IMG/VR virus record: IMGVR_UViG_3300032223_003682
Location: 1 to 20,985 of that record
Direction: 5' to 3' (one strand)
Source of the DNA: a virus
Length of the DNA stretch: 20,985 nt
This document shows positions 1 through 15,518 of the stretch, piece after piece (the stretch's first letter is position 1; each line of letters begins with the position of its first letter). Under the pieces are notes generated by a model. It was given only the letters and a program-made list of their open reading frames with translations. It was not told where the DNA came from and searched no databases. The position numbers and the translations under genes are program-made.

Positions 1-489
1 CTAAGGCAGTGCAGTTGAATGTATATTGCCAGATATGAACCAATCACTTGAATTGGTTTGTTGGGATAAGATTAAGTTCTGTAAATTGGTAGTTGAAATG
101 TTAACTGGCAAATCACTCACATTGCCAAGGCTTAGATTTATAATATCAGTCATTTGGCTGGGTGAAATAGTGATGTCTGCGACTTTTGTAATTGTTGTAG
201 TTTTTTGAATCAATATTACTCCGCTATCGCTTATATTTGTAATAAGGACAATATTTAATTTTAGTTTCACAGACACAACAAAATTAGTAGATCTTTTAGA
301 TACAATTACTGCTTGTAAATTAGTGGTACCAACAGGTACTTCATTCGTTATTCCTAAAGAGTTAACTCCAGATATAATGGTTGAGAGCTCGCTATCATTG
401 AGCAATTTGCGAAATATTGTTTGCGAATATTGTTGGGCGCCTGCAATTAAACAGTTGAGTAATAATAACAATGTTAGTATTTTTTTCAT
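1..489 (-). CDS. Small secreted protein of unknown function
   Basis: A 162-residue protein that I do not recognise. The N-terminus (MKKILTLLLLLNCLIAGAQQ) is a textbook Sec signal peptide: lysines, a leucine-rich core and a likely cut near AGAQ/Q. The mature part is rich in Ser, Thr, Asn and Ile and looks like beta-structure, with alternating hydrophobics such as VVSVKLKLNIVLI; no catalytic motif is visible. A Cys lies in the hydrophobic core (LLNC), but the surrounding residues do not form a good lipobox. It follows the next secreted gene by 3 bases, so the two are probably co-transcribed as the tail of the virion operon. The start is the ATG directly before KKIL; no Shine-Dalgarno is seen. 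The gene is clearly more AT-rich than the baseplate genes, as is its neighbour, suggesting a recently acquired pair. It is complete, with a TAG stop at 1-3. Confidence 0.75.
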   Translation of the reverse strand: MKKILTLLLLLNCLIAGAQQYSQTIFRKLLNDSELSTIISGVNSLGITNEVPVGTTNLQAVIVSKRSTNFVVSVKLKLNIVLITNISDSGVILIQKTTTITKVADITISPSQMTDIINLSLGNVSDLPVNISTTNLQNLILSQQTNSSDWFISGNIHSTALP

Positions 490-492
490 AAT

Positions 493-1347
493 TTAATTTG
501 TATGAGTTGCTTCGAAATTTAATATTGCGGCTTCGTCCATGTGATTTGTATAAAAATAAAAATCGTGAATTTCTAAACTTCCAACACCAGGATTAAAAGT
601 TTGCCCAATAGATATTGTCATTGGCTTTCCATCATACCAAATTTCTTGACCAAAATCAGCAATACCATAGTTTCCTGGGACAGATTCAATATTAATATCA
701 TCTAATGGATTATGATAATCGTTCTGATAGGCAGTTCTTAATCCTAAAATATTATTCCAAGTTATTATATACCATGTTTCAGCTGTTCCGATATCACCAC
801 AATTATAATTTTCACCAATTGTTACATCAGGTCCTAGAACAGCATACCAAAAAGAGTCATAAGTATAAGGCGCTTGAAAATAAATCAAATTTTCATTAAA
901 TGCCATTGTGCCAATGGCTTCTGTAGATATTAATGTAAAATCGGTAATAGCTATTCCAAATCCTGTATAAGGGTCATCGGCATTATCGTATCTTATCTTT
1001 ACTGCATATGTACCCTCAAGTGGAACTAATTGTTCTCGTGTCCAAGAACTAAATTCTTTATTGATTGGAGAAGTTGAACCATCAACTGGCACAGAGATAT
1101 AAGTTTTCCCACCGCTAGAATGAAACGTACCAGAATATACATCTAAATCATAACCATTATCAGTAATATCACGAAGTAAACCATCTTGATTTGGAGTTCC
1201 ATTATAAGCAAATAATGGAACAAGTTGTGGGGCTGCAGTAATTTTTGGTTTAGCTATATTAAGAAAAACTGGATCACGCAACGAAAACGCCATTTGAGAA
1301 TGGGTATTCCCAGCAATCAATAATAAAAATAAAATAAAATATTTCAT
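493..1347 (-). CDS. Secreted protein of unknown function
   Basis: A 284-residue protein that I do not recognise. The reading frame is open to 1401, but the ATG at 1345-1347 gives a clean signal peptide (MKYFILFLLLIAGNTHSQ) and lies 1 base after the upstream stop, so I chose it. Cleavage is likely after HSQ. The mature part is rich in aromatic residues, Asp, Gly and Asn (for example YDLDVYSGTFHSSGGKTYISVP and FYFYTNHMDEAAIL), as in extracellular beta-sandwich or adhesin-type domains, but I see no named motif. Only one Cys remains in the mature chain. It sits between the fibre gene and another secreted protein, with almost no gap on either side. AT-rich composition matches the fibre 3' end, so gene and fibre tip may have arrived together. 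A role in host-surface binding or modification is inference. Confidence 0.75.
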   Translation of the reverse strand: MKYFILFLLLIAGNTHSQMAFSLRDPVFLNIAKPKITAAPQLVPLFAYNGTPNQDGLLRDITDNGYDLDVYSGTFHSSGGKTYISVPVDGSTSPINKEFSSWTREQLVPLEGTYAVKIRYDNADDPYTGFGIAITDFTLISTEAIGTMAFNENLIYFQAPYTYDSFWYAVLGPDVTIGENYNCGDIGTAETWYIITWNNILGLRTAYQNDYHNPLDDINIESVPGNYGIADFGQEIWYDGKPMTISIGQTFNPGVGSLEIHDFYFYTNHMDEAAILNFEATHTN

Positions 1348-1348
1348 A

Positions 1349-3646
1349 TTATGGTTGATAAGGCGCAGCAAACACATTGGTCCCAAAGCACTTAAATGCA
1401 ACTAATCCATTTGTTAACACTACTAAATTGGTATTATTGGGGCTCCAGATCTGGGGCCAAGCAACAGTAATACCAGTGCCAAAAACAGTTGCGCCAATAT
1501 ATTTAGCATACCCACTTGATGCAACTCCAGTGGCTGAAGTGAATGTAATATTGTTGGTAATGGCAATCTCATTTAAATTAAAATTTAATACTGCTGTTGT
1601 TTGTGTAGTAGCATTAAAAATTAAATTTGCTGGGTTAAGGTTTGTTAATGCTGAACCATCTCCAATATATGTGCCGGTAAACGTGCCAGAGTAGTTGGCA
1701 TTGAGCGTGACCGGTGTATTGAAAGTCAGCGATGTCGGATAGTTTGTTCCGCCAAACACATTCAGCGCATAGGTTCCACTTGAAGTGACGGCATCGCAAA
1801 TCACACGACGAACCACGTAGAATCCCGCCGCGTTGGTCGAGGTGTATTGCTGACCGCCTGAAATCCACGAATAGGCGTTGGTGGTTCCCGGCGTGATGGT
1901 TTGTGCTGCGCCGTAAGTAATCTGTTGCAGATTGGTCTTATCATAGGTGATGTAGATGTCAGGGTCAATCTGAATGCTTGGATTTGGCCCATTGCCTGTG
2001 AAGTTCAGATAAAATGTTGAAACGAATGGACCAGACACGGACTGATAGGCATTGGTCGTTATGATGGTCGCAAAGATTTGACCAACCGTAAGATTGGTAA
2101 ATGACTTGATGTAGTTGGTCGGAGCCGTTGAGCCGAACAAAAGAGCAACCATGTTGGTGGTCGTTCCCACGCGATTCGTGATTCCGACGTTGGTGGTGTT
2201 CAAAGAGCCGTAAAGGATTTGACCGGATTTGAGAATCGAGGCGACGTAGTTTGCCGTGACTAGTTGATTGGCCGATGGACTGGCCGTATTGGTCGAGATG
2301 TCAAACACACTATTGGTGATGTAGAGTGGACCTTGAACGTAGCCTTGCACTTGCAGTGTGTTCGTGACGTAGATGGAGGGGAAGTTGGTATTGTTTGCGA
2401 TGGATGTGTTGACGAAATTCGTGGAAGCTAATCCATTGGTCAGACCGGGCAGCGAGTTCGTGTAGAGGAATACGACCGGATTCGAGTACACGACGGTCGT
2501 GAAGTTGTTCGTTGCCGCCACTACGAGGTTAGTCGTAGTAGTTAGATTCGCGCTATTGGTAGCCGAGATCTGAGTGAGTACAAAGTTTGTCGTAGCCAGA
2601 CCATTGGTGATGGAACTAGTCACGAAGCCGTTGGTCAATGCCGGCAGTGAGCTCGTGTAGAGAATGGCTGAAGGATTGGTATAGACTAGAGTCGTAAAGT
2701 TGTTCGTTGCCGCCACTACGAGGTTAGTCGTGGTCGTCAGATTGGCACCATTGGTCGCAGAGATCTGCGTCAGTACGAAGTTTGTAGTGGCTAGACCATT
2801 CGTGATCGAAGAAGTGACAAATCCATTCGTAGCATTATTGACATAGTTTGTGGTGGCCAATCCATTCGTGATCGAAGACGTAACGAAGCCATTAGTAGCG
2901 GCATTTACATAGTTCGTAGTAGCCAAGCCGTTCGTAATGCTTGAGGTAACGAAACCATTCGTAGCATTATTGACATAGTTCGTAGTGGCTAAGCCGTTAG
3001 TCACGGAAGCAGTTGCATAGTTCGAAGGATTTGAATTCAGATAGAACGCCGTCGCATTCGAATAGGCCGCCGTACCCAATCCAGCAAGATTGGTAGACGC
3101 GATGTTGGTTATTCCAGATCCGTTGCCGTAGATCACGCCGCCGATATATGCGCTGTTCGTTACGTAGATTCCTGGAAAATTGGTATTGCCAGTTGCAATT
3201 GCAGAATTGACGTAGTTCGTCGTAGCCAGTCCATTTGTAATCGAAGCCATCACGAAGCCGTTAGTGGCGTTATTGACGTAGTTAGTCGTTGCCAATCCGT
3301 TCGTGATGCTCGATGTCACGAATCCATTAGTCAGAGCAGGAAGCGAACTCGTATAGAGTATTGAACTCGGATTGGTATAGACCAGAGTCGTGAAGTTATT
3401 CGTGACGCTCTTGGCATAGTTCGTAGTGGCCAGACCATTCGTAATAGCCGATGTGACCAGACCGTTCGTAGCCGATGTGATCAGTGCATTTACCTCAGAG
3501 GTAGAATACACGACCAGACCAGTTCGAGCCGTATACGCATTGGTCGTAGTCGTCCACGGAGAAGCCGTGACCGGTGCCAAAGCGAATGCATCAAATCCCG
3601 TCATCACGAACAGCGCGACGATCAGGCCAAATATAAAGTTTCTCAT
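1349..3646 (-). CDS. Repeat-rich tail fibre-like protein with signal peptide
   Basis: A 765-residue Thr/Asn/Ala-rich repeat protein, probably a fibre. After the N-terminal 45 residues it is built from degenerate repeats of the type GLATTNYVNNATNGFVTSSITN (22 residues), plus a 65-residue unit containing LTQISATN and ANLTTTTNLV. Two stretches, YGNGSGITNI and YIGDGSALTNL, match the GxGSxLTxI signature common in phage fibres. Start choice is firm: its ATG overlaps the TGA of the previous gene (ATGA at 3643-3646), implying translational coupling. Oddly, that start gives a hydrophobic, signal-peptide-like N-terminus (MRNFIFGLIVALFVMTGFDAFA), unexpected for a cytoplasmically assembled fibre. The last ~110 codons are AT-rich, unlike the rest, suggesting an exchanged C-terminal tip. 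An exported adhesin is the main alternative. Confidence 0.75.
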   Translation of the reverse strand: MRNFIFGLIVALFVMTGFDAFALAPVTASPWTTTTNAYTARTGLVVYSTSEVNALITSATNGLVTSAITNGLATTNYAKSVTNNFTTLVYTNPSSILYTSSLPALTNGFVTSSITNGLATTNYVNNATNGFVMASITNGLATTNYVNSAIATGNTNFPGIYVTNSAYIGGVIYGNGSGITNIASTNLAGLGTAAYSNATAFYLNSNPSNYATASVTNGLATTNYVNNATNGFVTSSITNGLATTNYVNAATNGFVTSSITNGLATTNYVNNATNGFVTSSITNGLATTNFVLTQISATNGANLTTTTNLVVAATNNFTTLVYTNPSAILYTSSLPALTNGFVTSSITNGLATTNFVLTQISATNSANLTTTTNLVVAATNNFTTVVYSNPVVFLYTNSLPGLTNGLASTNFVNTSIANNTNFPSIYVTNTLQVQGYVQGPLYITNSVFDISTNTASPSANQLVTANYVASILKSGQILYGSLNTTNVGITNRVGTTTNMVALLFGSTAPTNYIKSFTNLTVGQIFATIITTNAYQSVSGPFVSTFYLNFTGNGPNPSIQIDPDIYITYDKTNLQQITYGAAQTITPGTTNAYSWISGGQQYTSTNAAGFYVVRRVICDAVTSSGTYALNVFGGTNYPTSLTFNTPVTLNANYSGTFTGTYIGDGSALTNLNPANLIFNATTQTTAVLNFNLNEIAITNNITFTSATGVASSGYAKYIGATVFGTGITVAWPQIWSPNNTNLVVLTNGLVAFKCFGTNVFAAPYQP
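2480..2830 (-). repeat. Duplicated 195-bp coding unit in fibre gene
   Basis: Two copies of a longer unit, offset by 195 bp: the shared string ctacgaggttagtcgt starts at 2521 and again at 2716. Each codes for about 65 residues including TNFVLTQISATN, NLTTTTNLVVAATNNFTT and LYTSSLP-type segments. This is a second repeat length nested in the same gene as the 66-bp repeats. Ends are approximate. Confidence 0.7.
2795..3005 (-). repeat. Tandem 66-bp coding repeats in fibre gene
   Basis: About three consecutive copies of a 66-bp unit coding for the 22-residue motif GLATTNYVNNATNGFVTSSITN. Codon-level differences between copies show divergence under protein-level constraint. Further single copies lie near 3190-3340 and 3415-3470. 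Unit boundaries are approximate, read by eye. Confidence 0.75.
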
Positions 3647-4146
3647 AGTTGAACGAATGCCTGCCAGCCGGTCGTGGAGTATCCAGACATCTTGAAATAG
3701 AGCGTGTTGGCGTCTACATCTATGTATGAATATCCGGGAGGAGCCGAGACGATTCCTTCCGGAGATCCGTGGCCGCTCAGGCGATACGGATAGATGGGAG
3801 GAGCCGCATTGGGCGTCGTTGCCGCAGGAGTAAATTCGATCTGACCTTCAAGCACACGAGTCACGTTGCCAGAAGCCGTAGAGAACATCTCGACGTCGTA
3901 CACGTATCGTCCAGCTTTGGTAGCGCGAGTGACGTCTGGAGTCAGATTGATGGCGATCTTTCCAGAGGTCGTCGAGATGACCTGACAGATGAAGTCCGTG
4001 AGATTGGCAGACGAGTAGCTCTTACGAAACTGCGAGCGAAAGCTCTGACCGGTGACGTCGAGCGGAAGTCCATTCGGATCTTTGAGATCTACGATCGCCG
4101 CAAAGGATGAGCCCTGATCGGCCGTTAAGTTAGCTACGATTGCCAT
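3643..4146 (-). CDS. Small virion protein, Ig-like/BppU-N-like
   Basis: A 167-residue protein. The first ~115 residues follow the pattern of small phage baseplate/fibre-base beta-sandwich domains: a strand with a polar start (NLTADQGSSFAAIVDL), DPNGLPLDVTGQSFRSQFRK, then GKIAINLTPDVT, KAGRYVYDVEM and RVLEGQIEFTP. This resembles the N-terminal domain of BppU-type proteins and many cyanophage virion proteins; the family call is from pattern memory only. The C-terminal ~45 residues (PYRLSGHGSPEG, GYSYIDVDANTLYFKMSG, GWQAFVQL) resemble the short collar motifs that precede fibre tips. It overlaps the fibre start by 4 bases, so coupled expression and a fibre-attachment role are plausible. GC content is similar to the baseplate genes, unlike the AT-rich gene upstream. 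Confidence 0.75.
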   Translation of the reverse strand: MAIVANLTADQGSSFAAIVDLKDPNGLPLDVTGQSFRSQFRKSYSSANLTDFICQVISTTSGKIAINLTPDVTRATKAGRYVYDVEMFSTASGNVTRVLEGQIEFTPAATTPNAAPPIYPYRLSGHGSPEGIVSAPPGYSYIDVDANTLYFKMSGYSTTGWQAFVQL

Positions 4147-4147
4147 A

Positions 4148-4846
4148 TTATGACACGGTATATGAATTAAATACTACTGTATTTGCTGTTGTGAGCGGTA
4201 TGAGAGCGTTTGATGCAATTTGCCTTCCTGTAGTTAGAATTGGATTTTTTCTATTTGCGGCTCTTACGGCATTGATGTAGATAGAATAATCACGATTCAA
4301 TATAGCGTAGGGACCATTTGCGCCAGAAGATATATATGAGTGAGGAGCTTGGATAGAAGCTGCACTTATATCATACGTGTGCGTGATGATTGTAGTAGGA
4401 TTGGTCATATATTTTACTACAAATGAGTTAACAGACCAATACCAGTTGTTGCCTCCAGAATTATCAACACTTAAAGTCATACCCTGTGCAGGCAATCCAT
4501 ATGTAAAATTTGTATTCACCGGCTGTGGGTATGGACCACCGCCCGCTGTACCTCTTGTTAATACGTATTGATATTCTGTAGCATTCCACGTCACGTTATA
4601 CGTATGAAATGGACCACTGGCAGTAGAATTACAGTAACCAAATACCATTGTCTGTCCAGGACAAATAAGAGCTAAATTGTCATCATTTGACGAACCCATC
4701 GTAATAGAATGGATAAAGGGATACGGTAAAGGAGGAAGAGTCAGATTATTAACATCCGTTCCCATGTTATTGATCTTCTGACGCTGAATCTCAAACGTAT
4801 CAGACTGAAGGACAGGAACTGACGGAGTTGTTGTGATATTTGACAT
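4148..4846 (-). CDS. Virion-associated protein of unknown function
   Basis: A 232-residue protein without a family I can name. Its N-terminus (VPVLQSDTFEIQRQKINNMGTDVNNL) has the DTFExxRQKxNNxG-xxxNL pattern often seen at the start of structural proteins in T4-like phages of marine hosts, where it is thought to dock the protein to the particle. The body is rich in Tyr, Thr and Asn and probably beta-structured (for example WNATEYQYVLTRG, NNWYWSVNSFVVKYM). It lies between gp8 and the Ig-like protein with 1- to 4-base spacings. Base composition is noticeably more AT-rich than both flanking genes, which suggests a separate origin. A decoration, fibre or fibre-connector role is inference from position. 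Confidence 0.7.
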   Translation of the reverse strand: MSNITTTPSVPVLQSDTFEIQRQKINNMGTDVNNLTLPPLPYPFIHSITMGSSNDDNLALICPGQTMVFGYCNSTASGPFHTYNVTWNATEYQYVLTRGTAGGGPYPQPVNTNFTYGLPAQGMTLSVDNSGGNNWYWSVNSFVVKYMTNPTTIITHTYDISAASIQAPHSYISSGANGPYAILNRDYSIYINAVRAANRKNPILTTGRQIASNALIPLTTANTVVFNSYTVS

Positions 4847-4850
4847 AAAA

Positions 4851-6614
4851 TTAAAATTGTGTTACGATCGTAATCGATTCGGACTGACCAGCCGCTTGAG
4901 TGATCGGTGTGCGATTTTGTACAAAAATGACGTCACCAGTACCATCCGTATATTCTTCAGCTGCTGATACGGCAGAAATGCTAGCACCTGCTACTACGGA
5001 ACTTGAATAGATTGGTTTTCTCCAAATTTTCAAGCTAGTTGGAGATGCAGTAGTAAAAGGTACCGGCGTGATATTTTCTCCCAATGTACCAAAAGTCGAC
5101 GAGTTTTGATGATAGTATACCTTTGAGCCTACCACTTGATCGACCCATCCGCGGGCAGAACCAGCAGTACCTGAACCCTGTTCAATGATGTCTCCAGCCT
5201 CAGGCATAGGAGTTGTAGTACCACCAAGCGTCAACGACTTAAGGCATCGATATGTAATCGTCGATCCGGTCGAAGAGTTAAAGACTACTGGATTTCGAAT
5301 GAGTGAGAGCTGACGAATCTGATCGCTTGAAGGAACATCAGCCGATCCGGGATATACTGTATCATATGAGAATGAACCATAAAAACCAGCATACCAAGCA
5401 GGAAGGTCAGACGTGACGTCGTATCCAAACCCCTTTATAGGCGTGATTCGAGGAATAATAGTGGCAGGAGAAGTTCCTGCACCAGTCACAAAGCGAACCG
5501 TGCCGGTCGTATAATTAGATCCCGGAGCCGTCATTGCTACCTTCAAGATGGCACCGCTACTTGAATCGATACTTATGACTTGACCGGTTGCACCGGTGCC
5601 ATCGCCGTCGACGGCAAATGTTGAAGAGGTTGTATATCCAGATCCACCTTGACCGGTCACAACGCGATATGAATATATTGCTCCGACTGATGTTGTAGTG
5701 GCAGTCGTGATTGTCGTTGAAGTACCAGTCGTCGTCGCGCGGCGATAGATCTTAAAGAATTGATTTGAATCGAGCGCACCTGAAACGTTTGACGTTAAAC
5801 CTTGAGCCGTCAAAGTTCCTGCTGTATCCAGGCCCAAATTGGACACATATACCCAACGATACATGTCTGCGCCGGCTGAACCTACCGCACCAATTATGGT
5901 AGCCGAGGTGTCTGGAGAAACCGTGACCGATTGCGATGAAGATGAGTCAATACCAGATTGAGCACAGATATAGACTTTAGAATTATACACGACATAGCAA
6001 GGATAAGCCGTATATTGAGTAGATCCACTGGTAACATTTGTAGCATAGAAGCAGCTTGGATCCGTAGGATCCCAGGCTTTGTAGAAGCTACCGGATATCC
6101 AATTATAACGAGGAAGCACATATCCAGCATTACCATAGATGGCCGTCTGTGAAGCGGCCGATCCAGTATTGAATGCGACAACTACTTTCTGTAGTGCGAT
6201 CAAATTATTGCGCGTATCAACTTCTGTCTTCACGGAGGCGATTGGAGATCCTGGAGACGCATCAGATCCATCTGGCGTCTTATAGGGATCTGACTTGCCA
6301 ATTCCGATGTAGTACTGAGAAAAGAAAGAAAGCAAGGCACCTGATAGCGTAACAGTTGGAGACGGACTGACCGTAAAGCTATTAGTACTAATCGACGTGA
6401 TGATCGTAGTAGTTGACGAGGTCAGAGATCCTGTACCCGATGTGATTACGACTGCCATGCCAGCTTGCAAATTAGCAGGAATAGTTCCTGATGCAGGAGT
6501 AATCGTTGAGACGGACGACGAGCAGTTCGCAATCATCACCTTTGGCAGAGTCATCTCGTCAAAGATGTTCTGCACGTTGTTCTTACGAAAGCGGTGTGTA
6601 ATAATAGCTGACAT
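4851..6614 (-). CDS. gp8: Baseplate wedge protein gp8
   Basis: A 587-residue relative of T4 gp8 (334 residues), a wedge component of the baseplate periphery. The anchors are ordered as in T4: residues 8-20 (RFRKNNVQNIFDEM, T4 KFRTEKMLNFYNS), 101-111 (YYIGIGKSDPY, T4 IFITFGRSEPW), 167-179 (LPRYNWISG), 206-218 (CYVVYNSKVYICA), 433-445 (IRQLSLIRNPVVF, T4 FRQISIITNPLEA) and the C-terminus 567-587 (NRTPITQAAGQSESITIVTQF, T4 NRPPIIMAMDQTEEINILFTF). The extra length comes from an N-terminal beta insertion (about 24-98) and a Gly-rich region (about 310-395) carrying two GxGYTT / GSNYTTG repeats, as in cyanophage gp8 homologues. An exact late box ends 14 bases before the ATG; there is no Shine-Dalgarno. 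Confidence 0.9.
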   Translation of the reverse strand: MSAIITHRFRKNNVQNIFDEMTLPKVMIANCSSSVSTITPASGTIPANLQAGMAVVITSGTGSLTSSTTTIITSISTNSFTVSPSPTVTLSGALLSFFSQYYIGIGKSDPYKTPDGSDASPGSPIASVKTEVDTRNNLIALQKVVVAFNTGSAASQTAIYGNAGYVLPRYNWISGSFYKAWDPTDPSCFYATNVTSGSTQYTAYPCYVVYNSKVYICAQSGIDSSSSQSVTVSPDTSATIIGAVGSAGADMYRWVYVSNLGLDTAGTLTAQGLTSNVSGALDSNQFFKIYRRATTTGTSTTITTATTTSVGAIYSYRVVTGQGGSGYTTSSTFAVDGDGTGATGQVISIDSSSGAILKVAMTAPGSNYTTGTVRFVTGAGTSPATIIPRITPIKGFGYDVTSDLPAWYAGFYGSFSYDTVYPGSADVPSSDQIRQLSLIRNPVVFNSSTGSTITYRCLKSLTLGGTTTPMPEAGDIIEQGSGTAGSARGWVDQVVGSKVYYHQNSSTFGTLGENITPVPFTTASPTSLKIWRKPIYSSSVVAGASISAVSAAEEYTDGTGDVIFVQNRTPITQAAGQSESITIVTQF

Positions 6615-6621
6615 AGTTTAA

Positions 6622-7869
6622 TTAGGGATATTTATACGCATCGGGCGAGAAGGTGATCGTCAATCCTGAATTCATAGTCGAGCTCAAAGACGTGAGCAGT
6701 GTGACTGTACCAGACACAGTATTGACCGATGAGCTGCTATAGTTGACGATCGCCGAAGACGTAGCTCCAAAACTACTGGTACCAGTGACGACCATTCCGG
6801 GAACGATGTTGAGTACTGAATACGTTCCTACGGAAAGAGTATAGGTACCTGAAGCAAACGACGCGGTCGTCAATACGCTAAACTGATTGACGGCGCCGAT
6901 GTTAGACCAGTCAGCATACGTGTATGACGGCGTATTCTGATTGGCTTCATTATAGGCCGCATCCGCTTCTTTTATTATGTAATTTGCAAATTGTGCTAAT
7001 TCAGTCGAGTCGAGAAACCATAGAGCATTTTGATAATCGAGTCGAGCATTCACCATTCTACTATCTGATTGTTCAACGATTCCGTTGTTATTGAGTATTG
7101 ACTGAATATGATACTTAAATCCAACTGGATGAACCAAAGCTCGATAGGCTTTTTCAAAAGTGCTATTTGCAACACCCGTCTGAATGATGTAGCTAAATGG
7201 AGTCCAAGCCTGAATTGGGGTCTGACCATAGACCGTCGTACTGCCTTTCACGCTAGTAGCGGCAATAGTCATTCCAGATGCTGTGAGCCAAGGCTTGATG
7301 TATTGGCTCTGTATCGTATCTGGCGAAGAAAAATCGTTGACATCTAAGATAGAAGCCGTGTCGTTATAAAAAGCCAAAAAGAAAGCTGCAGCGGAATTTC
7401 GAGATCCACGAATCCTATAAAAGTACTTTACTATCTTTTGATACAATGCCGCGCGCGGGCCTGCAAATAATTCTGGAGACTTCAAACGATTATACATAGG
7501 CACCGTCGACGTCGATGACATATATGTCGGAATCGGCACATATTGCGCAATCGTATTTTGAATGTGTGATAGATAGTCCGCGTCGACCTGATCGGGATCG
7601 AGTTCAGCCAAAATCGAATAGATGATGTTTGATGGACCAGATCCACTCTTTCCAGACAGTACCGTACCAGTCGTAGTCGACAGCGTATATTGATTCAACG
7701 TCACGGTCGAAGTCGACCAGGCATTGATGTTCATGTACTTATAATACTCCCTGAGGAGCATCAAGAAGTTCGTAGCCGTGACTCGTATCTGCTCAGGAAG
7801 CAGATCTGGAGACCTAGGAGCTTCTAGGTTGCGAGGCTGAGAGTCATTGATTCCAAGCGTAGATATCAT
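6622..7869 (-). CDS. Baseplate wedge-associated protein, gp7 position
   Basis: A 415-residue structural protein between gp6 and gp8, where T4 has gp7 (1032 residues). Residues 28-50 (IRVTATNFLMLLREYYKYMN) and 88-180 (ELDPDQVDADYLSHI, then YQKIVKYFYRIRGSRNSAAAFFLAFYND) match a helical pattern common in virion proteins of marine T4-like phages: EFLxxYYxW, then D-I-D-x-T, then FYxxKGSxxSxxFFFRxxF. I cannot align it to T4 gp7 itself, so I give no symbol. The last ~75 residues (335-410) form a small beta domain (VPGMVVTGTSS, VSGTVTLLTSLSS, GLTITF) that recurs in gp6 and gp8. The start overlaps the gp6 stop by 4 bases (ATGA). No Shine-Dalgarno. Confidence 0.75.
   Translation of the reverse strand: MISTLGINDSQPRNLEAPRSPDLLPEQIRVTATNFLMLLREYYKYMNINAWSTSTVTLNQYTLSTTTGTVLSGKSGSGPSNIIYSILAELDPDQVDADYLSHIQNTIAQYVPIPTYMSSTSTVPMYNRLKSPELFAGPRAALYQKIVKYFYRIRGSRNSAAAFFLAFYNDTASILDVNDFSSPDTIQSQYIKPWLTASGMTIAATSVKGSTTVYGQTPIQAWTPFSYIIQTGVANSTFEKAYRALVHPVGFKYHIQSILNNNGIVEQSDSRMVNARLDYQNALWFLDSTELAQFANYIIKEADAAYNEANQNTPSYTYADWSNIGAVNQFSVLTTASFASGTYTLSVGTYSVLNIVPGMVVTGTSSFGATSSAIVNYSSSSVNTVSGTVTLLTSLSSTMNSGLTITFSPDAYKYP
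6629..6636 (-). promoter_or_regulatory. T4-type late promoter box before gp8
   Basis: Exact TATAAATA on the minus strand, inside the last codons of the preceding gene. Fourteen bases separate it from the gp8 ATG at 6614. If initiation is about 6 bases past the box as in T4, the leader is only about 9 nt. Confidence 0.7.
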
Positions 7870-10349
7870 GATTGTGGATCGCGACTAAAGGTGGTGTATC
7901 CATATGATCCAGCGACTCCCGATTGAGCAAACGCGTCGGCCGCTGCGCTTATGTTCGGAGTAGTCAGATTCATGTCGATCTTGACGAGCTGATGACGACT
8001 CGGGGCTACGTCGTTAGATGCAGGACGAGAATAAATCTTCACGATCGAAGTGGTCGTGATGTCGACGGCCGAACGAATGATTACGTACTGCGAAGTAGAG
8101 TCGATCGCTGAAATGGAAGCCGAGAAGTACAACGTATTGGAACTATTAGAACTAATCGTCGCCGTCGAGCCGACCGAGCTTCCAGCCGTGATGTATAAGA
8201 CGCAGTTAGCAAATTGATTCGTAAGCCAAGAAGCACCTAGACCAGCATAGGCCGTATCCGTCAGAGTCGTTGTACTTCCAGAAGTTGCCGTACCGCCGAT
8301 GTATCGATACAGCTCGATCTTTCCAGTCGTTGGATACACCGTACCGATATGAATATCCGAACCAGTCGATGTATACTTTGGATCCAGTACGGCCGTAGTA
8401 GTCGAATTCTTCGATAAGAATAGACGACGAGAAGAGGTCGTCGAGGGATCGACGCCGTCTTTGAGATAGTATGTACCGGTCGGAGGAGTGATCGTTAGGG
8501 CATTGGACGAAACGGTCGTAGTAGCATTGGTACTTAGAGTGATGATCGTCTGAGATCCAGTGTTATTGATTCCCGCTACCGTAGCACCAACGGGTATACC
8601 AGATCCACTGACGAAGGCACCATACACTAGATAGGGAAACGTGAGTGTATTTAATCCAGAGCCTCCAACGCCGGGACTTGAATAAATCGTGACCGAAGTG
8701 CTTGACGCGCTTGACGATGCTGAGACTATGGCGGCCAAATTCGACGGCATGACCGTCGTCATCGAAGATATCGTGATTGCATCTGAAGAAACCATCGAAG
8801 CAACCTGAGTCATCGTTCCAAACAATGCATTACCAAAGGAGGTGACCAGTCCATTCGGAATAGCCGCGATACCAGTCGTACCGCTAGTGACGGCCGTAGC
8901 ACTATTCAGAGCGTTTATCGTGTAGTTCTTATAGAAAGACAATTGAATATCTGAGTTCAAGATAGACGGATCCGAAAGGTCGATCTGTCGCAGTAGATTT
9001 GAATGACGAAACACTCCAGTAAAACTCTGCAGAGAAGTCGACGAATAGTTTGAGACTACTCCGTTGACCGTATTGATTAACTCATTCGCCGTCTTAGAAG
9101 TCAGATTAGGAGAATACTTAAAGTTGACATTCAGATATAGATTGATGTAATCGACCGGATACATGACCGGTGTGACCGACATAACCTTATAAGGCTTTAT
9201 CGCATTATATACGGAATTATTATCCGAAGGAGCAGGATCGATGCAGATGTATACCTTTCCTGCATATTGCGCCGCATTGATCGGATCAAAGGTAACTTCA
9301 TCTTCTCCTCCCCAAACGTTGATCGCATTTACCGTCGACGAATAGATATCCGGATTTTTAAGCAAAGCAATATAGTCATTTGCCGTAACGGCGCGATTCT
9401 GAGTGATGAGTGATGCTGGCGCATTGAATCGAATCGCATCGATGCTTTCCTCATCGGTTCCATTCAAAGAACTGATAACGGTCACGACGGCCGAAGAGAC
9501 ATTAGTCAGAGTATCAGCAAATTGAAAACTGGTCACTCCAGTCGCCGCCAAGCCTTGAGTGGAGATATAATTGAGCTGAACGACATTTAAATTTTTCAAT
9601 GCGGCGCCGAATACGTCATCACCAAAAGTTACTTCGTATTTGCCACGACTATTCATCGACAGAAAATATATCTTCGACGTTGGTCCAGCTATGCTAGATA
9701 GTTCTCCTCCAGTAGCAAGAGTAAAAGTAGTAGGAGATCCAGCATTTTGATAATCATATACCAATACTTCAAGGGTGCTCTTTATATCGGCAGAAGCATC
9801 ATCGATGACAAACTTTTGATTGGGAATGGTATTGTCGACTTGATACGTCTGAGAGCGCTGAACGCCTTGAACCAAACTAAGTCCGCTCACGTTGTATGTC
9901 AACGTCGAAGAGGTATAGGTGGCCGTCGCCGCGTCATGTGTTACGTAAGTAAATGAGCCGTCTGGAATAGTTCCAGTAAACTTAGTGCCTTTTGGAATAT
10001 ACAGCGTCGATCCGGCCGAGAGACCGGTCAGGTTCGTCGGAGTAAATGCCACTGACACCGTAGCCGTAGCGGCACCGATCGAATTGGGAACGTAGCCAAG
10101 GAGCTTAGCCTGAGAGATAACAGATGAGCGGAGCTGAGCCGTATCGATGAAGCTCTCGTTCAGATTCAAATGAGCAAGGACGGCATTATAGTGAGTGTTG
10201 TATGCCAATACGTCGAGCATCATGTTCAGACCGGATCCATCATAGTTCCAGTCCTTGATCGGCGAATCCTGTCTCAGGAAGTAAGCCTTAAGGTTTGCCT
10301 TGATCTGATCAAAGTCAAGCTCCGTTGCGTTTAAGAGTGGTTGTGCCAT
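7866..10349 (-). CDS. gp6: Baseplate wedge protein gp6
   Basis: An 827-residue relative of T4 gp6 (660 residues), which forms the ring of wedge dimers holding the baseplate together. The N-terminal region is diagnostic: LDFDQIKANLKAYF (11-24), then DWNYDGSGLNMMLDVLAYNTHYN (33-55) and NESFIDTAQLRSSVISQAKLLGY (64-86). A baseplate J-like core follows: GKYEVTFGDDVFGAAL (236-251), then TDEESIDAIRFNAP, RAVTANDYIALL (319-330) and YICIDP. The extra length is an inserted beta region at about 500-700, including residues 575-622 (GSGIPVGATV, TIITLSTNATTTVSSNALTI) that recur in the next two genes. It starts with ATG at 10349, 3 bases after gp25, with no Shine-Dalgarno; the 11 bases around the start (minus-strand TACGATAACAT) are shared with the gp53 start. 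Confidence 0.93.
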   Translation of the reverse strand: MAQPLLNATELDFDQIKANLKAYFLRQDSPIKDWNYDGSGLNMMLDVLAYNTHYNAVLAHLNLNESFIDTAQLRSSVISQAKLLGYVPNSIGAATATVSVAFTPTNLTGLSAGSTLYIPKGTKFTGTIPDGSFTYVTHDAATATYTSSTLTYNVSGLSLVQGVQRSQTYQVDNTIPNQKFVIDDASADIKSTLEVLVYDYQNAGSPTTFTLATGGELSSIAGPTSKIYFLSMNSRGKYEVTFGDDVFGAALKNLNVVQLNYISTQGLAATGVTSFQFADTLTNVSSAVVTVISSLNGTDEESIDAIRFNAPASLITQNRAVTANDYIALLKNPDIYSSTVNAINVWGGEDEVTFDPINAAQYAGKVYICIDPAPSDNNSVYNAIKPYKVMSVTPVMYPVDYINLYLNVNFKYSPNLTSKTANELINTVNGVVSNYSSTSLQSFTGVFRHSNLLRQIDLSDPSILNSDIQLSFYKNYTINALNSATAVTSGTTGIAAIPNGLVTSFGNALFGTMTQVASMVSSDAITISSMTTVMPSNLAAIVSASSSASSTSVTIYSSPGVGGSGLNTLTFPYLVYGAFVSGSGIPVGATVAGINNTGSQTIITLSTNATTTVSSNALTITPPTGTYYLKDGVDPSTTSSRRLFLSKNSTTTAVLDPKYTSTGSDIHIGTVYPTTGKIELYRYIGGTATSGSTTTLTDTAYAGLGASWLTNQFANCVLYITAGSSVGSTATISSNSSNTLYFSASISAIDSTSQYVIIRSAVDITTTSIVKIYSRPASNDVAPSRHQLVKIDMNLTTPNISAAADAFAQSGVAGSYGYTTFSRDPQS

Positions 10350-10352
10350 ATG

Positions 10353-10784
10353 TTATCGTAGTCTCTCGAGATAAAAATTCAATGCCGCTTCTACATTCAG
10401 CGCGACGATATTAAAGTTAATCGTGATTTGATATGCATTTATGTCAGAATTATCAATCACGTCGACGGACGTCACGTTCACTCGAGGCTCGTGTTCAATG
10501 AGGACTCGTGTGATCTCTTTATTTATCGCTATCTGAGTATAAGCATTAGCGTTCTCAAATAAAAGGGCTCGTACGTTGCCTCCACGAAACGGATCGAAGG
10601 GAGATTCATAGAAGTTGGTCAGGACTAAGTTACGCACGGCATTCTTAACGGCCATGATGTCTCTAAGTGGCACGACGTCGTTGGTCATCGGACTCACGAA
10701 CGGATCACGGAGGTCCAGATCTGAATAGGTCTGAACCGCAGCGATCGTGCGAGGACGCAGTGGATTAAAGTCCGAGAAACTCAT
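10353..10784 (-). CDS. gp25: Baseplate wedge protein gp25
   Basis: A 143-residue gp25/GPW_gp25-family protein (T4 gp25 is 132 residues), the conserved wedge component that contacts the sheath in contractile systems, with homologues in type VI secretion (TssE). Visible family traits are the N-terminal FSDFNPLRPRT, DIMAVKNAVRNLVLTNFYESPFDPFRGGNVRALLFE (44-79) with the conserved PFxPxxGxxxxxLLFE pattern, and EPRVNVTSVDV with the EPR motif. It sits between gp5 and gp6. A 7/8 late box (CATAAATA, 10791-10798) ends only 6 bases before the ATG, so a transcript from it would be almost leaderless. Confidence 0.95.
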   Translation of the reverse strand: MSFSDFNPLRPRTIAAVQTYSDLDLRDPFVSPMTNDVVPLRDIMAVKNAVRNLVLTNFYESPFDPFRGGNVRALLFENANAYTQIAINKEITRVLIEHEPRVNVTSVDVIDNSDINAYQITINFNIVALNVEAALNFYLERLR

Positions 10785-10790
10785 TGAATC

Positions 10791-10798
10791 TATTTATG
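10791..10798 (-). promoter_or_regulatory. Near-consensus late box before gp25
   Basis: CATAAATA (7 of 8 bases of the T4 late consensus) on the minus strand in the 18-base gap between gp5 and gp25, 6 bases before the ATG. The position implies a leader of about one base. Confidence 0.45.
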
Positions 10799-10802
10799 GC
10801 AA

Positions 10803-11471
10803 TTAGTTCAAGTTAATCGTCGTACCCTTGATATTGATCGTTGAGCCGCAGATATTGATAACTCCTCCGGGAGCGAGCTCAATGAATCCTCCGTCTTTAT
10901 GGAGTAGAGAGATGCGTTCTTTGCCAGTCGTATCGTCGTATTCAATCACGTGGCCGGAACGAGTTTTAATCGCCTGATTGTTTGGATAGCTCGGAGCAAT
11001 ATAGTCTAAAATGACAGACTGCTTATATGTCGCTTTAGCAGCCTTTGTACCAGAGATAGCCTCGACGGGAATATCCGCCCCCGTCTTAGTCGGATTGGTG
11101 CCAGAAGGATCTGAGAATCCTATAGTCTTATCAGGCTTAGCTACGATCTTGGAAGCGATCGATCCCATGATGATAGGATCCTGTGCCGAAGGTCCATCTC
11201 GAAAGAAGCCGATGACCCACGATCCGGGTTGTAGTCCAGTCGCAGACTGACCGACGCCAGCCATTGATGCCGACGTGTTTGGAAGCAGGCACAACGCCCA
11301 AGGTAGTCCAGACGTCGGGAGTAGGCCCCTGTCGTCCGTATGATAGCCTACGCAGCGAACACGCACTCGACCGAGTTGCATTGGATCCGTGACGTCTTCT
11401 ATGACGCCGTGAAACCAATAGAATCCTCCTCCGTAGTTGGCAAAGTCGTCTTTATGATGCGTAGTAAGCAT
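10803..11471 (-). CDS. gp5: Baseplate hub/spike protein gp5, no lysozyme
   Basis: A 222-residue central spike protein. Residues ~15-115 are the gp5 OB-fold: GGFYWFHGVIEDVTDPMQLGRVRVRCVGYHTDD, then GLPWALCLLP, GSWVIGFFRDGPSAQDPIIMGSI, as in T4 gp5 and VgrG/gpV proteins. The C-terminus (GHVIEYDDTTGKERISLLHKDG, then INICGSTINIKGTTINLN) holds the beginning of the triple-stranded beta-helix but only two or three turns. T4 gp5 (575 residues) has a lysozyme domain between these parts; here a ~60-residue linker (SDPSGTNPTKTGADIP...) replaces it, so the spike is unlikely to digest peptidoglycan itself. It follows gp27, its trimeric partner in the hub, by 1 base. A weak late box (TGTAAATA, 11481-11488) lies inside the gp27 3' end. 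Confidence 0.92.
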   Translation of the reverse strand: MLTTHHKDDFANYGGGFYWFHGVIEDVTDPMQLGRVRVRCVGYHTDDRGLLPTSGLPWALCLLPNTSASMAGVGQSATGLQPGSWVIGFFRDGPSAQDPIIMGSIASKIVAKPDKTIGFSDPSGTNPTKTGADIPVEAISGTKAAKATYKQSVILDYIAPSYPNNQAIKTRSGHVIEYDDTTGKERISLLHKDGGFIELAPGGVINICGSTINIKGTTINLN

Positions 11472-11472
11472 A

Positions 11473-12849
11473 TCAGCTCTTATTTACATCATAGGTCAAT
11501 GAGTCGCGCTTCAGACGCATGCGACAGTGATATTCAGAATCAAACTGATGAATGACGGCCGTGACCAGATACTTTCCGGAAACCGTGCGATCGAAGTAGT
11601 CGTCGAAGTTGCCTTTCATGCTCTTCTTATCAAACTTCTTTAGATCGATCGCCTTTGGAATCTCGAGTGTAATCTTTCGACCAGGCCTCATCTTGAAGTC
11701 GCCAGCCGTCGTAATCTCGTGAGTGACCGTATCGAGAGTCTCAATGAGAGAGTTATATGTACCTAGACGATTGACCATCAGGTCGTGATAGCTCTTTGCA
11801 GATCCGTCAGAAGAATAGGCCAATGAGTTGATTGGCAGATATTCAGCAAACGCGTCATATGTCTTATTGATATTCAAATTCTCATTGGGCAATGAATATG
11901 GCACGCCAAACGTATTTGAAAGCACTTTATTTTTATTCAGTGTCGATTTAGCATCGATCGACGAATAACTAAACTGCTGAAGATTTACCGTCTTTGTCGA
12001 CATGTCCAAAAATATAGACTTCGAAGCATATGCGCCATTACTTATGGTCGGAAGTACTTTAGACATTTTGAAGTCCGATGATATGTCTAAAATACGCTCG
12101 ATGCTTTCCGTAAAGTATTCGGGCGATCCAGGAGTCGAGTGAAAGATCTTTGCGTCGCGATACGTACGATAGCTTGGATTCTTTTTCTCATCGATCAGAC
12201 TGGTGAGCGACTCGAGTCGAATGCCATCTATCATTGATTCATGTAGAAAGAACGGCCTTGAATTTTGATCATATGCACGGCGTAGAAGCCAATATGCTGC
12301 ATTGAGTGGATGCATGAGAGGTATCACTCCATTGAATCGACCCAATGATTTTTCAACATAGTTTACGTTATCACACAATAGATCTTTAGACAGGATGTGT
12401 GCTATTTCTGTAGAGATCGGATTATTGACGGCTCTCGATATGCGCTTAAACTGAGAGACGTAGGCTTGAGTCGTTACGCCGACTATCGAATATGCTTGAG
12501 TATTCTGCTGCTCACCTCGAGCAAATATCGGATACTCCGTGACGTAGAACATAAGATCTACATTTGTCCAATCGGGATCCGTGTAGTCATGACGCCCCAT
12601 CTTGATCTGAATAGTCTCTTGTCCGATGAGCTGATATTCTTCGATGAAGTTGGCCGAATCTTTGATATTAAGTTTTACGATCATCGAGGCCGTATACAGG
12701 CTCTCCGTGATTGTAAAATCCGTAACGATATTTTGAATATCGGCCTGCTCTCCCTTATGATTGGTCAGGATGATGGCGTCGAGCGCGTACGCATATGGCG
12801 TAAGCGCCTTATCCGTATTTGGCTTTATGTTGCCACGTATATTAGGCAT
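11473..12849 (-). CDS. gp27: Baseplate hub protein gp27
   Basis: A 458-residue hub protein similar to T4 gp27 (391 residues), the trimeric torus linking the gp5 spike to the tail tube. T4-like anchors are the first tube-like domain (IVTDFTITESLYTASMIVKLNIKDSANFIEEYQLIGQETIQIKM, residues ~42-85, parallel to T4 [23 protein letters not shown]...IIQISV) and the C-terminus (THEITTAGDFKMRPGRKITLEIP, then KYLVTAVIHQFDSEYHCRMRL, parallel to T4 IGNFNLTPGVKIIF...YVDEVIHEL). It overlaps the gp53 3' end by 8 bases and precedes gp5 by 1 base; hub partners gp27 and gp5 adjacent is a sensible unit. No signal for autonomous transcription was found at its start, and there is no Shine-Dalgarno. Confidence 0.88.
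   Translation of the reverse strand: MPNIRGNIKPNTDKALTPYAYALDAIILTNHKGEQADIQNIVTDFTITESLYTASMIVKLNIKDSANFIEEYQLIGQETIQIKMGRHDYTDPDWTNVDLMFYVTEYPIFARGEQQNTQAYSIVGVTTQAYVSQFKRISRAVNNPISTEIAHILSKDLLCDNVNYVEKSLGRFNGVIPLMHPLNAAYWLLRRAYDQNSRPFFLHESMIDGIRLESLTSLIDEKKNPSYRTYRDAKIFHSTPGSPEYFTESIERILDISSDFKMSKVLPTISNGAYASKSIFLDMSTKTVNLQQFSYSSIDAKSTLNKNKVLSNTFGVPYSLPNENLNINKTYDAFAEYLPINSLAYSSDGSAKSYHDLMVNRLGTYNSLIETLDTVTHEITTAGDFKMRPGRKITLEIPKAIDLKKFDKKSMKGNFDDYFDRTVSGKYLVTAVIHQFDSEYHCRMRLKRDSLTYDVNKS
11481..11488 (-). promoter_or_regulatory. Weak late box before gp5
   Basis: TGTAAATA (7/8) on the minus strand, 9 bases before the gp5 ATG, inside the end of gp27. Listed mainly because it fits the spacing pattern of the other boxes; a chance match is quite possible. 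Confidence 0.3.
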
Positions 12850-13891
12850 TGATCAGGTCTCGATATTGTTTAACGAACGCACGAATATAGGTCGGATTCA
12901 CTACACGAATCCTTGATCTATCTTCATTTAGATCATTCTCCCAGTCAGAATAAGAGACGGGATAGATTCGATTGGTAGGAGATATATCATATGTCGTACC
13001 TGGATTTCCAAGAATCTGATGAACATCCTGAGCCGTTAAAGCAAAGCCCAGAGGGTCCGTGAAGTAATGATACTGAGTGCCATTAACTACGATGCCTCCA
13101 TATGAATTAGCGTAGGCTTCAATCATATTAGTCACGGTGCCAGATATGTCCTGAAAATTTACGACGTCGCCGATCTGAGGAGCAAACACGTAGTGATGTA
13201 TCGCACTTCGACCGGTCGTTCTATATGGCAATATTCCTGGAGAAGCAATGGTCTGGCCGATTGCTGCAGAGACAGGAAAGAATGACGTCAGATAGTTGGC
13301 TTCAGCCGAAGCCTGAGTATAGGGTATACCAGTTGACGATACTGAAAGACGAAATATGCCCCCGGAGCTATTTAAATTAGAGATAAAGGTATCCGATGAT
13401 CCAGAGTTGATGACCCAGATCTGCTGCATGTCGGAATCATACTTCATGACCTGTCGAGTCTTACTCGTTGAAGGATTGACGATGTATTGCGGAGTATTAA
13501 GAAAGTCCACACCAGCGACGGTAGTCGCACAGGACGTAGTAGTGATGATATGACCAGCCACGTCGGCCATCTGAATGACGGAATAGCCATCATACTCTTG
13601 AGTCAGATAAGCTTCCATCTGACTGTCCGACATCGGCCAAGCCGCATGACCCGACTTCAATTTGTCATTGATGATGAAGAAAGTCCAGTAGTAGTCGGGA
13701 TCTCCATAGAGCAGCTGTGACACGACGTCCGGTCGAGCGCCGCCGTCGATGCGATAGTCCGTATATGCTATCGTCGGATCCAGTTTGATCTGAGGAGATG
13801 TGACGCTACGAAACAGATCCGTGATGCGCATGAGCGCTCCGGTCTTTTGAAGGTCATATGTTGTCAATGGAAATTGTCTAAAGAATGACAT
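12842..13891 (-). CDS. gp53: Baseplate wedge protein gp53
   Basis: A 349-residue wedge protein of the gp53 family (T4 gp53 is 196 residues). The N-terminal half is typical: FFRQFPLTTYDL, then DLFRSVT, YTDYRIDGGARPDVVSQLLYGDPDYYWTFFIINDKLKSGHAAWPMSDSQMEAYL (42-96), where xYGDPxYYWxxxxxN and WPMS are the family signature. The C-terminus (NRIYPVSYSDWENDLNEDRSRIRVVNPTYIRAFVKQYRDLI) is the usual ending in marine T4-like phages. The middle (about 105-290) is an inserted beta-rich region not present in T4. gp53 joins wedges in the baseplate ring. Its ATG has no Shine-Dalgarno; the sequence before it (TACGATAACATG) is the same as before gp6. Confidence 0.9.
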   Translation of the reverse strand: MSFFRQFPLTTYDLQKTGALMRITDLFRSVTSPQIKLDPTIAYTDYRIDGGARPDVVSQLLYGDPDYYWTFFIINDKLKSGHAAWPMSDSQMEAYLTQEYDGYSVIQMADVAGHIITTTSCATTVAGVDFLNTPQYIVNPSTSKTRQVMKYDSDMQQIWVINSGSSDTFISNLNSSGGIFRLSVSSTGIPYTQASAEANYLTSFFPVSAAIGQTIASPGILPYRTTGRSAIHHYVFAPQIGDVVNFQDISGTVTNMIEAYANSYGGIVVNGTQYHYFTDPLGFALTAQDVHQILGNPGTTYDISPTNRIYPVSYSDWENDLNEDRSRIRVVNPTYIRAFVKQYRDLINA

Positions 13892-13911
13892 GTTATCGTA
13901 TTAGAGTTAGA

Positions 13912-14865
13912 TTATTCAAAAGAGGGAAACTGTCCAGGTGAACCAGAAGGAACATTGGCTTTCGACGTCTGAACGGCTCCCTTGAATCCAATGTACGGCT
14001 TGAGCGGGATCTTGATGCCGGCCGGCGCGGCCGACGTAGCCAATCCAGTCTTCTCGTCGATGCCTCGATTCGACATTCCCATCTCGAGGAGGTCGATGTC
14101 GTTCCTCGTAAGGACTCGAGTTTCTTTGAATGACAGCTGACAGCCCACGGAAAACGGCGAACCGTCGTATCGAAACATATTTGCGTCGTCGTTGAACGTG
14201 CATTGAAACGATTCGAGATAGCACGCAAAGATCTTGGGTAAGTATTTGTTCTCGCGATCTCCTTCAAGGAAACGGATCTTCCAGAGGGGAGGATAGTCAA
14301 GCACAACGTTGGGGGCGTCGTCCGAAGATCCAGCGTATGTATAACGACGAAAGGTACGTTGAATGCGAGCGATCGCGTTCGTGTCTCGTTCTGAGTTGGC
14401 AATCAGCTTAAAGCTAAAGTTGAAGCTACGCATGTTGTTACCCTTGAAGGTGGTATTTTGATTTGGCGGCTTAACCTTCTTCTGTGCAAACATAGCCGTC
14501 TCCTTGTCGACGCCGGGAAGGATAGAAGCCAAAATCGCCTTTCCTCGAGCGCCAGTCAAGGAATGATATCGCTGCTCTACCGTTCCTCCTGCGGCGCTAG
14601 CGGCTCCACCGACGTCTCCCTGCATGAGTCTTGCCAGTGCATCCATTCCACCGCCGGCCGCGATGTCTCCGAGTTCCATCGAGTCGTAGCTGCCACCGTC
14701 CGTAAAGCTTACGCCGTTAGGCATTGGCAGGTAGATCGACGTAAACGTATTTCCTCCGGCCTTGTCTTCCTGTACCGTGAACTCGATCTGAGGAAACGCA
14801 AGCTCGCCAGACAACTCTAGAAGGTCAGACGGAAAGACGATGAAGGGATTAGCTGGTTGTGACAT
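13912..14865 (-). CDS. gp48: Baseplate tail tube cap gp48
   Basis: A 317-residue protein of the T4 gp48 type, which with gp54 forms the platform on the baseplate that starts tail-tube growth. Supporting pattern: TFTSIYLPMPNGVSFTDGGSYDSMELG (residues ~40-66), like T4 gp48 SVYLPMPQALTYSD; then FKGNNMRSFNFSFKLIANSERDTNAI, KIRFLEGDRENKYLPKIFACYLESFQCTFNDD and MFRYDGSPFSVGCQLSFKETRVLTRNDI, a fold typical of tube-like proteins. I chose the ATG at 14863-14865 (MSQPANPFIVFPSDL) over an in-frame GTG at 14877 because an exact late box ends 15 bases before it and initiation should occur between the two. T4 gp48 is 364 residues. No Shine-Dalgarno. Confidence 0.85.
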   Translation of the reverse strand: MSQPANPFIVFPSDLLELSGELAFPQIEFTVQEDKAGGNTFTSIYLPMPNGVSFTDGGSYDSMELGDIAAGGGMDALARLMQGDVGGAASAAGGTVEQRYHSLTGARGKAILASILPGVDKETAMFAQKKVKPPNQNTTFKGNNMRSFNFSFKLIANSERDTNAIARIQRTFRRYTYAGSSDDAPNVVLDYPPLWKIRFLEGDRENKYLPKIFACYLESFQCTFNDDANMFRYDGSPFSVGCQLSFKETRVLTRNDIDLLEMGMSNRGIDEKTGLATSAAPAGIKIPLKPYIGFKGAVQTSKANVPSGSPGQFPSFE

Positions 14866-14880
14866 AAATACGTTCACAAC

Positions 14881-14984: not shown

Positions 14985-15518
14985 ATGCATATTTATCCTC
15001 CAAATACAGAACAGTGGCGAATCAACTTAATTGAAAATCCTCCGCCATCTTCTAAACTTTATGAGCCAGAAGAATGGAGAGATATTGTATTAAATGAGTT
15101 GCATAAACATACGCCTATGTCAGAATCAATGCGAAAAGCTATTGGTGAAACTGTAAGAGAAGTATGGAAAGATCCAGAATATAAAGCTAGAGTTGGTAAG
15201 AAAATTTCTGAAAGCCAAATAGGACGAGTAAACTCAGAGGAAAGTAATGAAAAACGAAGAAAGTCGATGATTGGTAAACGTCACAGCGAAGCATCTAAAC
15301 AGTTGATGAGATTAAAAGCTGGACATAAACATACTGATGAAACGAAAGAAAAACTTAGTATAGCCGCAAAAGGTCGACCTTTAACAGATTTACACAAAGA
15401 AAACATTCGCAATATTGCACGTGGAAGAATGCACATAACAAATGGAATAGATAATCGATTTATACCAGGCACAGAAGAAATTCCTATAGGATGGAAAAGA
15501 GGGAGAACCATGAAATGA
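14985..15518 (+). CDS. NUMOD3-repeat homing endonuclease relic
   Basis: A 177-residue protein with four NUMOD3-type DNA-binding motifs at about residues 82-152: IGRVNSEESNEKRRKSMIG, GKRHSEASKQLMRLKAG, GHKHTDETKEKLSIAAKG, GRPLTDLHKENIRNIARG. The C-terminus (ITNGIDNRFIPGTEEIPIGWKRGR) has the NGxxNxxI...EIPxGWxxGR ending found in many phage GIY-YIG/HNH mobile endonuclease proteins. No GIY-YIG, HNH or other nuclease motif is visible in the first 80 residues (MHIYPPNTEQWRINLIENPP...), so it may be a truncated relic or a stand-alone DNA-binding protein. It is clearly AT-rich, has an AGGA Shine-Dalgarno (14973-14976) unlike the virion genes, and its TGA overlaps the gp4 ATG (ATGA, 15515-15518). Confidence 0.75.
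   Translation: MHIYPPNTEQWRINLIENPPPSSKLYEPEEWRDIVLNELHKHTPMSESMRKAIGETVREVWKDPEYKARVGKKISESQIGRVNSEESNEKRRKSMIGKRHSEASKQLMRLKAGHKHTDETKEKLSIAAKGRPLTDLHKENIRNIARGRMHITNGIDNRFIPGTEEIPIGWKRGRTMK

Follow-up and report, generated by a model that had tools for sequence, protein, structure and literature searches.

Predicted Sec leaders on a tail-fibre cassette shared by T4-like and other phage backbones

One end of a T4-like phage fragment (IMG/VR virus record IMGVR_UViG_3300032223_003682; the contig is the whole record, 20,985 bases, hereafter the window) encodes three consecutive proteins with predicted Sec leaders: a tail-fibre-like protein (P0003), a 284-aa protein (P0002), and a 162-aa protein (P0001). 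The trio is best explained as a mobile host-recognition cassette, in which a distal protein of lectin type and a small accessory protein accompany a tail fibre. The likeliest reading, to which we give about an even chance, is that these are virion fibres whose predicted export and cleavage would be followed by joining to particles outside the cytoplasm. The usual view is that the fibres of tailed phages fold and are attached inside the cytoplasm; if the reading is true, fibre attachment would have a different place and time. The parts of the cassette are as follows.

1349..3646, minus strand: tail-fibre-like protein P0003, 765 aa, with leader, TNGLATTNYV-type repeats, a shared domain of ~218 aa, and an exchangeable C-terminal tip
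3581..3646, minus strand: fibre leader, residues 1-22; predicted cleavage after FDAFA, start set by an ATGA overlap
1637..2290, minus strand: shared fibre domain, also in the leader-bearing fibres of L002, L010, L018, and L058, and in L004 (contig without its N-terminus)
1349..1636, minus strand: fibre C-terminal tip, AT-rich, matching the tips of L004 and L010; likely recombination junction at ~1636
493..1347, minus strand: 284-aa protein P0002, leader at ~1297-1347; leader-proximal segment in common with the LamG lectins of L004 and L010, C-terminal part its own and unassigned
1..489, minus strand: 162-aa protein P0001, leader at 436-489; member of a small leader-protein family, domain probably present twice

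Here and below, L and G numbers denote related loci and contigs.

Predicted leaders and where they occur

Leaders were evaluated with a home-made and crude test of charge, hydrophobic core, and the -3/-1 rule. By this test, each N-terminus of the trio combines a positive stretch, a hydrophobic core, and a small-residue cleavage pattern, as in substrates of Sec and signal peptidase I (positive n-region, hydrophobic core, small -3 and -1 residues). Cleavage is predicted between MRNFIFGLIVALFVMTGFDAFA and LAP in the fibre, between MKYFILFLLLIAGNTHS and QMA in the 284-aa protein (a site placed from relatives; the script alone puts it five residues later), and between MKKILTLLLLLNCLIAGA and QQY in the 162-aa protein. 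All three genes in 1-3646 pass, versus none of the 17 other called genes of the window. This bears out the initial annotation, which had read Sec-type leaders on these three open reading frames (ORFs), all of them on the minus strand as it had placed them. Its view that the fibre leader is not an annotation artefact also stands: the fibre start overlaps the upstream stop codon as ATGA, and the same overlap fixes the start in L006 and L008; it is absent in the more distant L058. The leader sequences of the window, L006, and L008 have diverged and hydrophobicity has been kept. Hydrophobicity alone is weak evidence, however, because composition-preserving shuffles of the leaders often still pass the crude test (5-22%).

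Across the relatives, all 33 author-chosen cassette genes with intact 5' ends have a leader by the crude test, a set that excludes upstream genes cut by contig ends (the L004 fibre, L012, L015, L016, and L023) and a leaderless 224-aa gene of L002. Counted as blocks on seven contigs, 17 of 19 cassette genes pass compared to 22 of 393 genes elsewhere; the two misses are the leaderless L002 gene and the cut L004 fibre. The Fisher value for this comparison (1.4e-17) is a guide only, as the blocks were defined post hoc and homologues are non-independent. For ORFs with several starts, any early start with a leader was accepted, in blocks and controls alike. A neck-region protein (L002 15269-16126) is a false positive of the test.

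G001, the T4-like contig of L002, is 118 kb long and is probably complete, given a 127-base terminal repeat. Five of its 134 ORFs (at least 80 aa) have a leader by a strict test, and all five lie at 98,594-108,680, which is the fibre region, around the neck genes and adjoining the baseplate genes. In four cultured phages, only a porin and a lysis-region protein pass the crude test among 79 coding sequences (picked from annotation tables, late region only), and no annotated tail or fibre protein among these 79 has a leader.

A gp10-type N-terminus behind a leader

The most informative evidence comes from sister proteins of the cassette in two relatives. One of them, a leader protein of L002 (G001) that is 472 aa long, would have a mature part starting QNINLVNVGTNANDHTGDPLRVAFQKINTNF. 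A tblastn search with this stretch gave matches in 570 phage records (E up to 10). In each of the seven cultured phages opened, the motif starts at residue 5-10 of a leaderless protein, and for five of these proteins there is an in-frame stop codon no more than five codons upstream. The protein of phage S-ShM2 is annotated as a baseplate wedge tail fibre connector. L058 encodes a second leader protein with the motif, behind a different leader. In both L002 and L058 the motif lies 5-6 residues past the predicted cleavage site, and in an alignment the first residue of most of the cultured-phage proteins falls at or next to that site.

The best sequence match of the motif in PDB is to the N-terminus of T4 gp10, residues 5-34 (E 0.4, weak on its own). 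Compared to the gp10-type baseplate N-terminus (T4 structure 5iv5; the motif also occurs in S-ShM2, phiM9, P12024L, and others), L002 and L058 have the same motif, equally far from the predicted mature N-terminus, but preceded by a leader of 20-22 residues. In these two loci a cleavable-looking leader thus precedes an otherwise normal virion N-terminus. The T4 short tail fibre sits on the N-terminal domain of gp10, according to a review (PMC3004832).

Two further observations concern this protein. In L074 (4136-4501) it is shortened to 121 aa, with leader and docking motif kept. Between the 472-aa protein and the terminase region, a further family of small leader-bearing proteins is encoded (L002 17566-18003, L073 7271-7720, L016 7257-7475).

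Relatives, mosaicism, and competing readings

Relatives of the fibre were found in L002/L003, L004, L006, L008, L010, L018, and L058; the 'fibres' of L017 and L019 were assigned by position only, and many relatives stem from few metagenomes. The leader is present in 5/5 fibres that contain the shared domain and whose N-terminus is intact (window, L002, L010, L018, L058) and in 15/15 members of the small-protein family to which the 162-aa protein belongs (15 loci on 15 contigs, found only by alignment-based search). Leaderless homologues, which the initial annotation had named as evidence that would count against it, were thus found in neither set. At the predicted cleavage site, an A-Q pair is almost invariant among 13 aligned small proteins. 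The usual members consist of one small domain; a weak internal match suggests that it is duplicated in the window copy. As had been raised at annotation, the trio travels together: L010, L011, L013, and L014 have the same order of leader-bearing fibre, second protein, and small protein, and L004 shows it up to the point where its contig ends. Position 2 is occupied by a LamG, concanavalin-like lectin (PF13385) in five of the seven copies tested (L004, L010, L011, L013, L014), whereas no Pfam family, PF13385 included, is matched by the window P0002 or by the copy in L008.

The backbones that carry the cassette are T4-like in the window, L002, L006, L008, and L058. Others are G003, with a 2,530-aa tape measure protein, and contigs of 39-44 kb, among them G005, which has a major head protein of another PHROG. 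Judging by these sequences, the trio is a cassette that recurs on several unrelated phage backbones, with exchange of both tips and lectins.

The fibre itself is mosaic. Within it, 805 bases (window 1636-2440) are 97.4% identical to L002; other genes are ~65-72% identical to L002 in longer alignments. Right beside this stretch, the fibre tip has a GC content of 37%, down from 48%, and the last two genes have 33%. Read from the alignment, the 805-base match reflects recent recombination in the fibre, and the GC step lies at its border. G003 is AT-rich (GC 34%) and holds a closely related tip together with a relative of protein 2. Given the GC step and the G003 match, another phage is the probable source of the distal cassette end, and the junction would lie within the fibre. 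The same tip is joined to a P0002-like second gene in L004 and L010. Tip exchange is usual in receptor-binding proteins.

The cassette lies at the low-coordinate end of the window, where the minus-strand gene order is gp8-like, 232-aa, 167-aa, fibre, 284-aa, and 162-aa.

3643..4146, minus strand: 167-aa protein without a leader; PHROG 'L-shaped tail fiber assembly'; translationally joined to the fibre gene
4148..4846, minus strand: virion-type protein of 232 aa without a leader; matches phrog_6005 (virion structural protein) weakly
4851..14877, minus strand: T4-like baseplate and tail genes, upstream of the cassette in gene order

The fibre thus stands in a tail operon, beside baseplate and fibre-assembly genes, and has a repetitive shaft and an exchangeable receptor-binding tip. 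Its repeats were identified by reading and self-BLAST, and the shaft motif of cassette fibres resembles that of leaderless phage fibres in L026 and L029. A virion character of the trio is favoured by its place after the baseplate genes, the overlap with the 167-aa gene, the shaft motif, the LamG lectins, and tip exchange; the gp10-type N-terminus behind a predicted leader in the L002 and L058 sister proteins also favours it. The initial annotation had doubted a plain T4-type route, and the leaders on the window fibre and its relatives, which depart from the T4-type pattern of a cytoplasmic fibre with no signal peptide, justify that doubt. Its further suggestion, that the products are exported rather than being virion parts, fits poorly with leaders joined to shaft repeats, lectin domains, and swapped tips, and with the gp10-type N-terminus on the relatives' sister proteins.

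If the fibres are exported virion components, the host Sec machinery would export the cassette proteins late in infection and signal peptidase would remove the leader. The fibres would then fold and trimerise in the periplasm, and may dock onto finished tails where the inner membrane is breached or after lysis. Adhesive proteins would in this way be held outside the cytoplasm, away from assembly and from progeny until lysis, and co-infecting phages might share fibres. Several points weigh against this reading. No other phage known to us fits Sec-exported fibres to assembled particles, and dilution would hamper docking once the cell has lysed. A motif scan found the gp10-type motif in none of the three window proteins, and the small third protein carries no feature typical of virion proteins. 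There are also small fibre-like proteins that lack a leader (L002 7308-7898), so the phages may have adhesins besides the exported fibres. Lastly, a leader-bearing, outer-membrane-barrel-like protein lies between the fibre cassette and the neck genes in the T4-like L002, L015, L016, L058, and L074 (L002 12320-12952; L058 15067-15645). The L058 copy matches OMP_b-brl with an E value of 4.5e-4, below the Pfam cut-off. These neighbours suggest that the phages also modify the envelope and that at least some members of the set act there.

The barrel-like neighbours, the Sec leaders, and the lectin domains are what would be expected if the trio were exported and not part of the virion, with the adhesin and lectin displayed on or released from the infected cell, where they could mask receptors, block superinfection, or change adhesion, in the manner of lambda Lom or other envelope morons; a porin in the tail region of Pelagibacter phage HTVC008M is a precedent. 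We consider this unlikely but a real contender. Against it stand the shaft repeats, the tail-operon location, the tip swapping, and the docking N-terminus on the L002 and L058 leader proteins. Moreover, searches of the trio found no outer-membrane anchor, autotransporter, barrel, lipobox, holin link, or known exclusion family. The initial annotation's proposal of envelope-modifying factors has partial support in the barrel-like leader protein of the relatives; the trio itself matched no such family. Were surface display true instead, these would be a large family of phage-encoded surface lectins. Less probable again is that the hydrophobic N-terminus is retained, as a trimer-forming or membrane-inserting segment, with assembly in the cytoplasm as in T4. 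To our knowledge all T4-type fibres assemble there, and the passing of shuffled leaders noted above is compatible with such a segment; chaperones take part in T4 (PMC3004832). A retained leader would push the docking motif 20 residues from the N-terminus, however, and is disfavoured for that reason; the motif lies 5-6 residues past the predicted site, as it does from a normal start codon. Retention is also hard to reconcile with the charged start and with the A-Q pair, almost invariant at the predicted site of the 13 aligned family members. An artefact of wrong starts or a chimeric contig, for which the sharp GC step inside the fibre could speak, is very improbable and is contradicted by the relatives: the start is fixed by ATGA in three contigs, the same gene order occurs in independent contigs, and the GC step falls within one continuous fibre ORF whose tip L004 and L010 likewise join to a P0002-like gene.

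Cultured T4-like phages offer a direct comparison. In T4, HTVC008M, and Methylophilales phage Melnitz the tail fibres occupy the same place between baseplate and neck genes, likewise next to a gene of the 'L-shaped tail fiber assembly' type, with a repetitive shaft and swapped tips. However, a leader is absent from the cultured relatives tested and present here on all fibres whose start is intact. Other phage proteins are known to be exported: lambda Lom is an envelope moron and T4 antiholin RI is periplasmic with a cleavable signal peptide (PMC12309495 and PMC8385771, respectively). Both are phage-encoded with a Sec leader, like the trio, but are not fibres, and the trio differs in that no barrel, lipobox, or holin link was found on it. 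More generally, and with somewhat less than an even chance in our estimate, tailed phages of several morphotypes may export fibres and lectins by Sec, cleave the leader to leave a standard virion N-terminus, and fit these parts outside the cytoplasm; fibres from one lysed cell could then also fit the particles of other phages. Neither Sec signals on tail fibres nor an extracytoplasmic last step of virion assembly is described in the open-access literature searched, a scope that leaves subscription journals and preprints largely outside. For the annotation of phage receptor-binding proteins, the cassette is a warning against discarding proteins with signal peptides.

Searches and neighbouring genes

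No homologue turned up in 50,697 phage records. Against cultured phages, tblastn searches with P0003, P0002, the 95-aa family, the fibre of L010, and the 472-aa protein of L002 over its whole length were negative, and scans of the GTDB genome collection found no relative of the small-protein family or of the shared fibre domain. P0002 and P0001 had no close relatives in IMG/VR as single queries. P0003 matched no family in Pfam, PHROGs, or PDB, and so falls in no known fibre family covered there. The structural model of the shared fibre domain is poor (pLDDT 45). That of the small protein (pLDDT 72; leader helix, linker, helix, hairpin) had no PDB match. Pfam and PDB sequence searches did not bear out a polygalacturonase-like stretch suspected in the fibre of L018, and it is not claimed. 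Disulphide formation as a reason for export was rejected, as cysteines are not conserved in the shared fibre domain. The leader style gives the impression of a host in the Bacteroidota or Verrucomicrobiota, which we do not put forward as a claim. The targets of phage diversity-retroelements that were studied lack signal peptides (PMC6199706).

The initial annotation had put the trio at the end of the virion operon. That end is the end of the contig, which stops exactly at the stop codon of the 162-aa gene; in relatives, the cassette is followed by further genes, envelope- or lysis-like and then neck genes. By PHROGs and Pfam, the window encodes gp8-, gp6-, gp25-, and gp5-like baseplate proteins, along with tail tube, wedge, and tube-cap proteins. 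Non-tail functions include a single-strand DNA-binding protein and a helicase loader. The cassette-bearing G003 contains a full-length tmRNA gene (L052 13642-14016; Rfam RF00023, 128 bits). In the tail region of the window, a homing-endonuclease-like gene (14985-15518, phrog_314) adjoins the head-closure gene.

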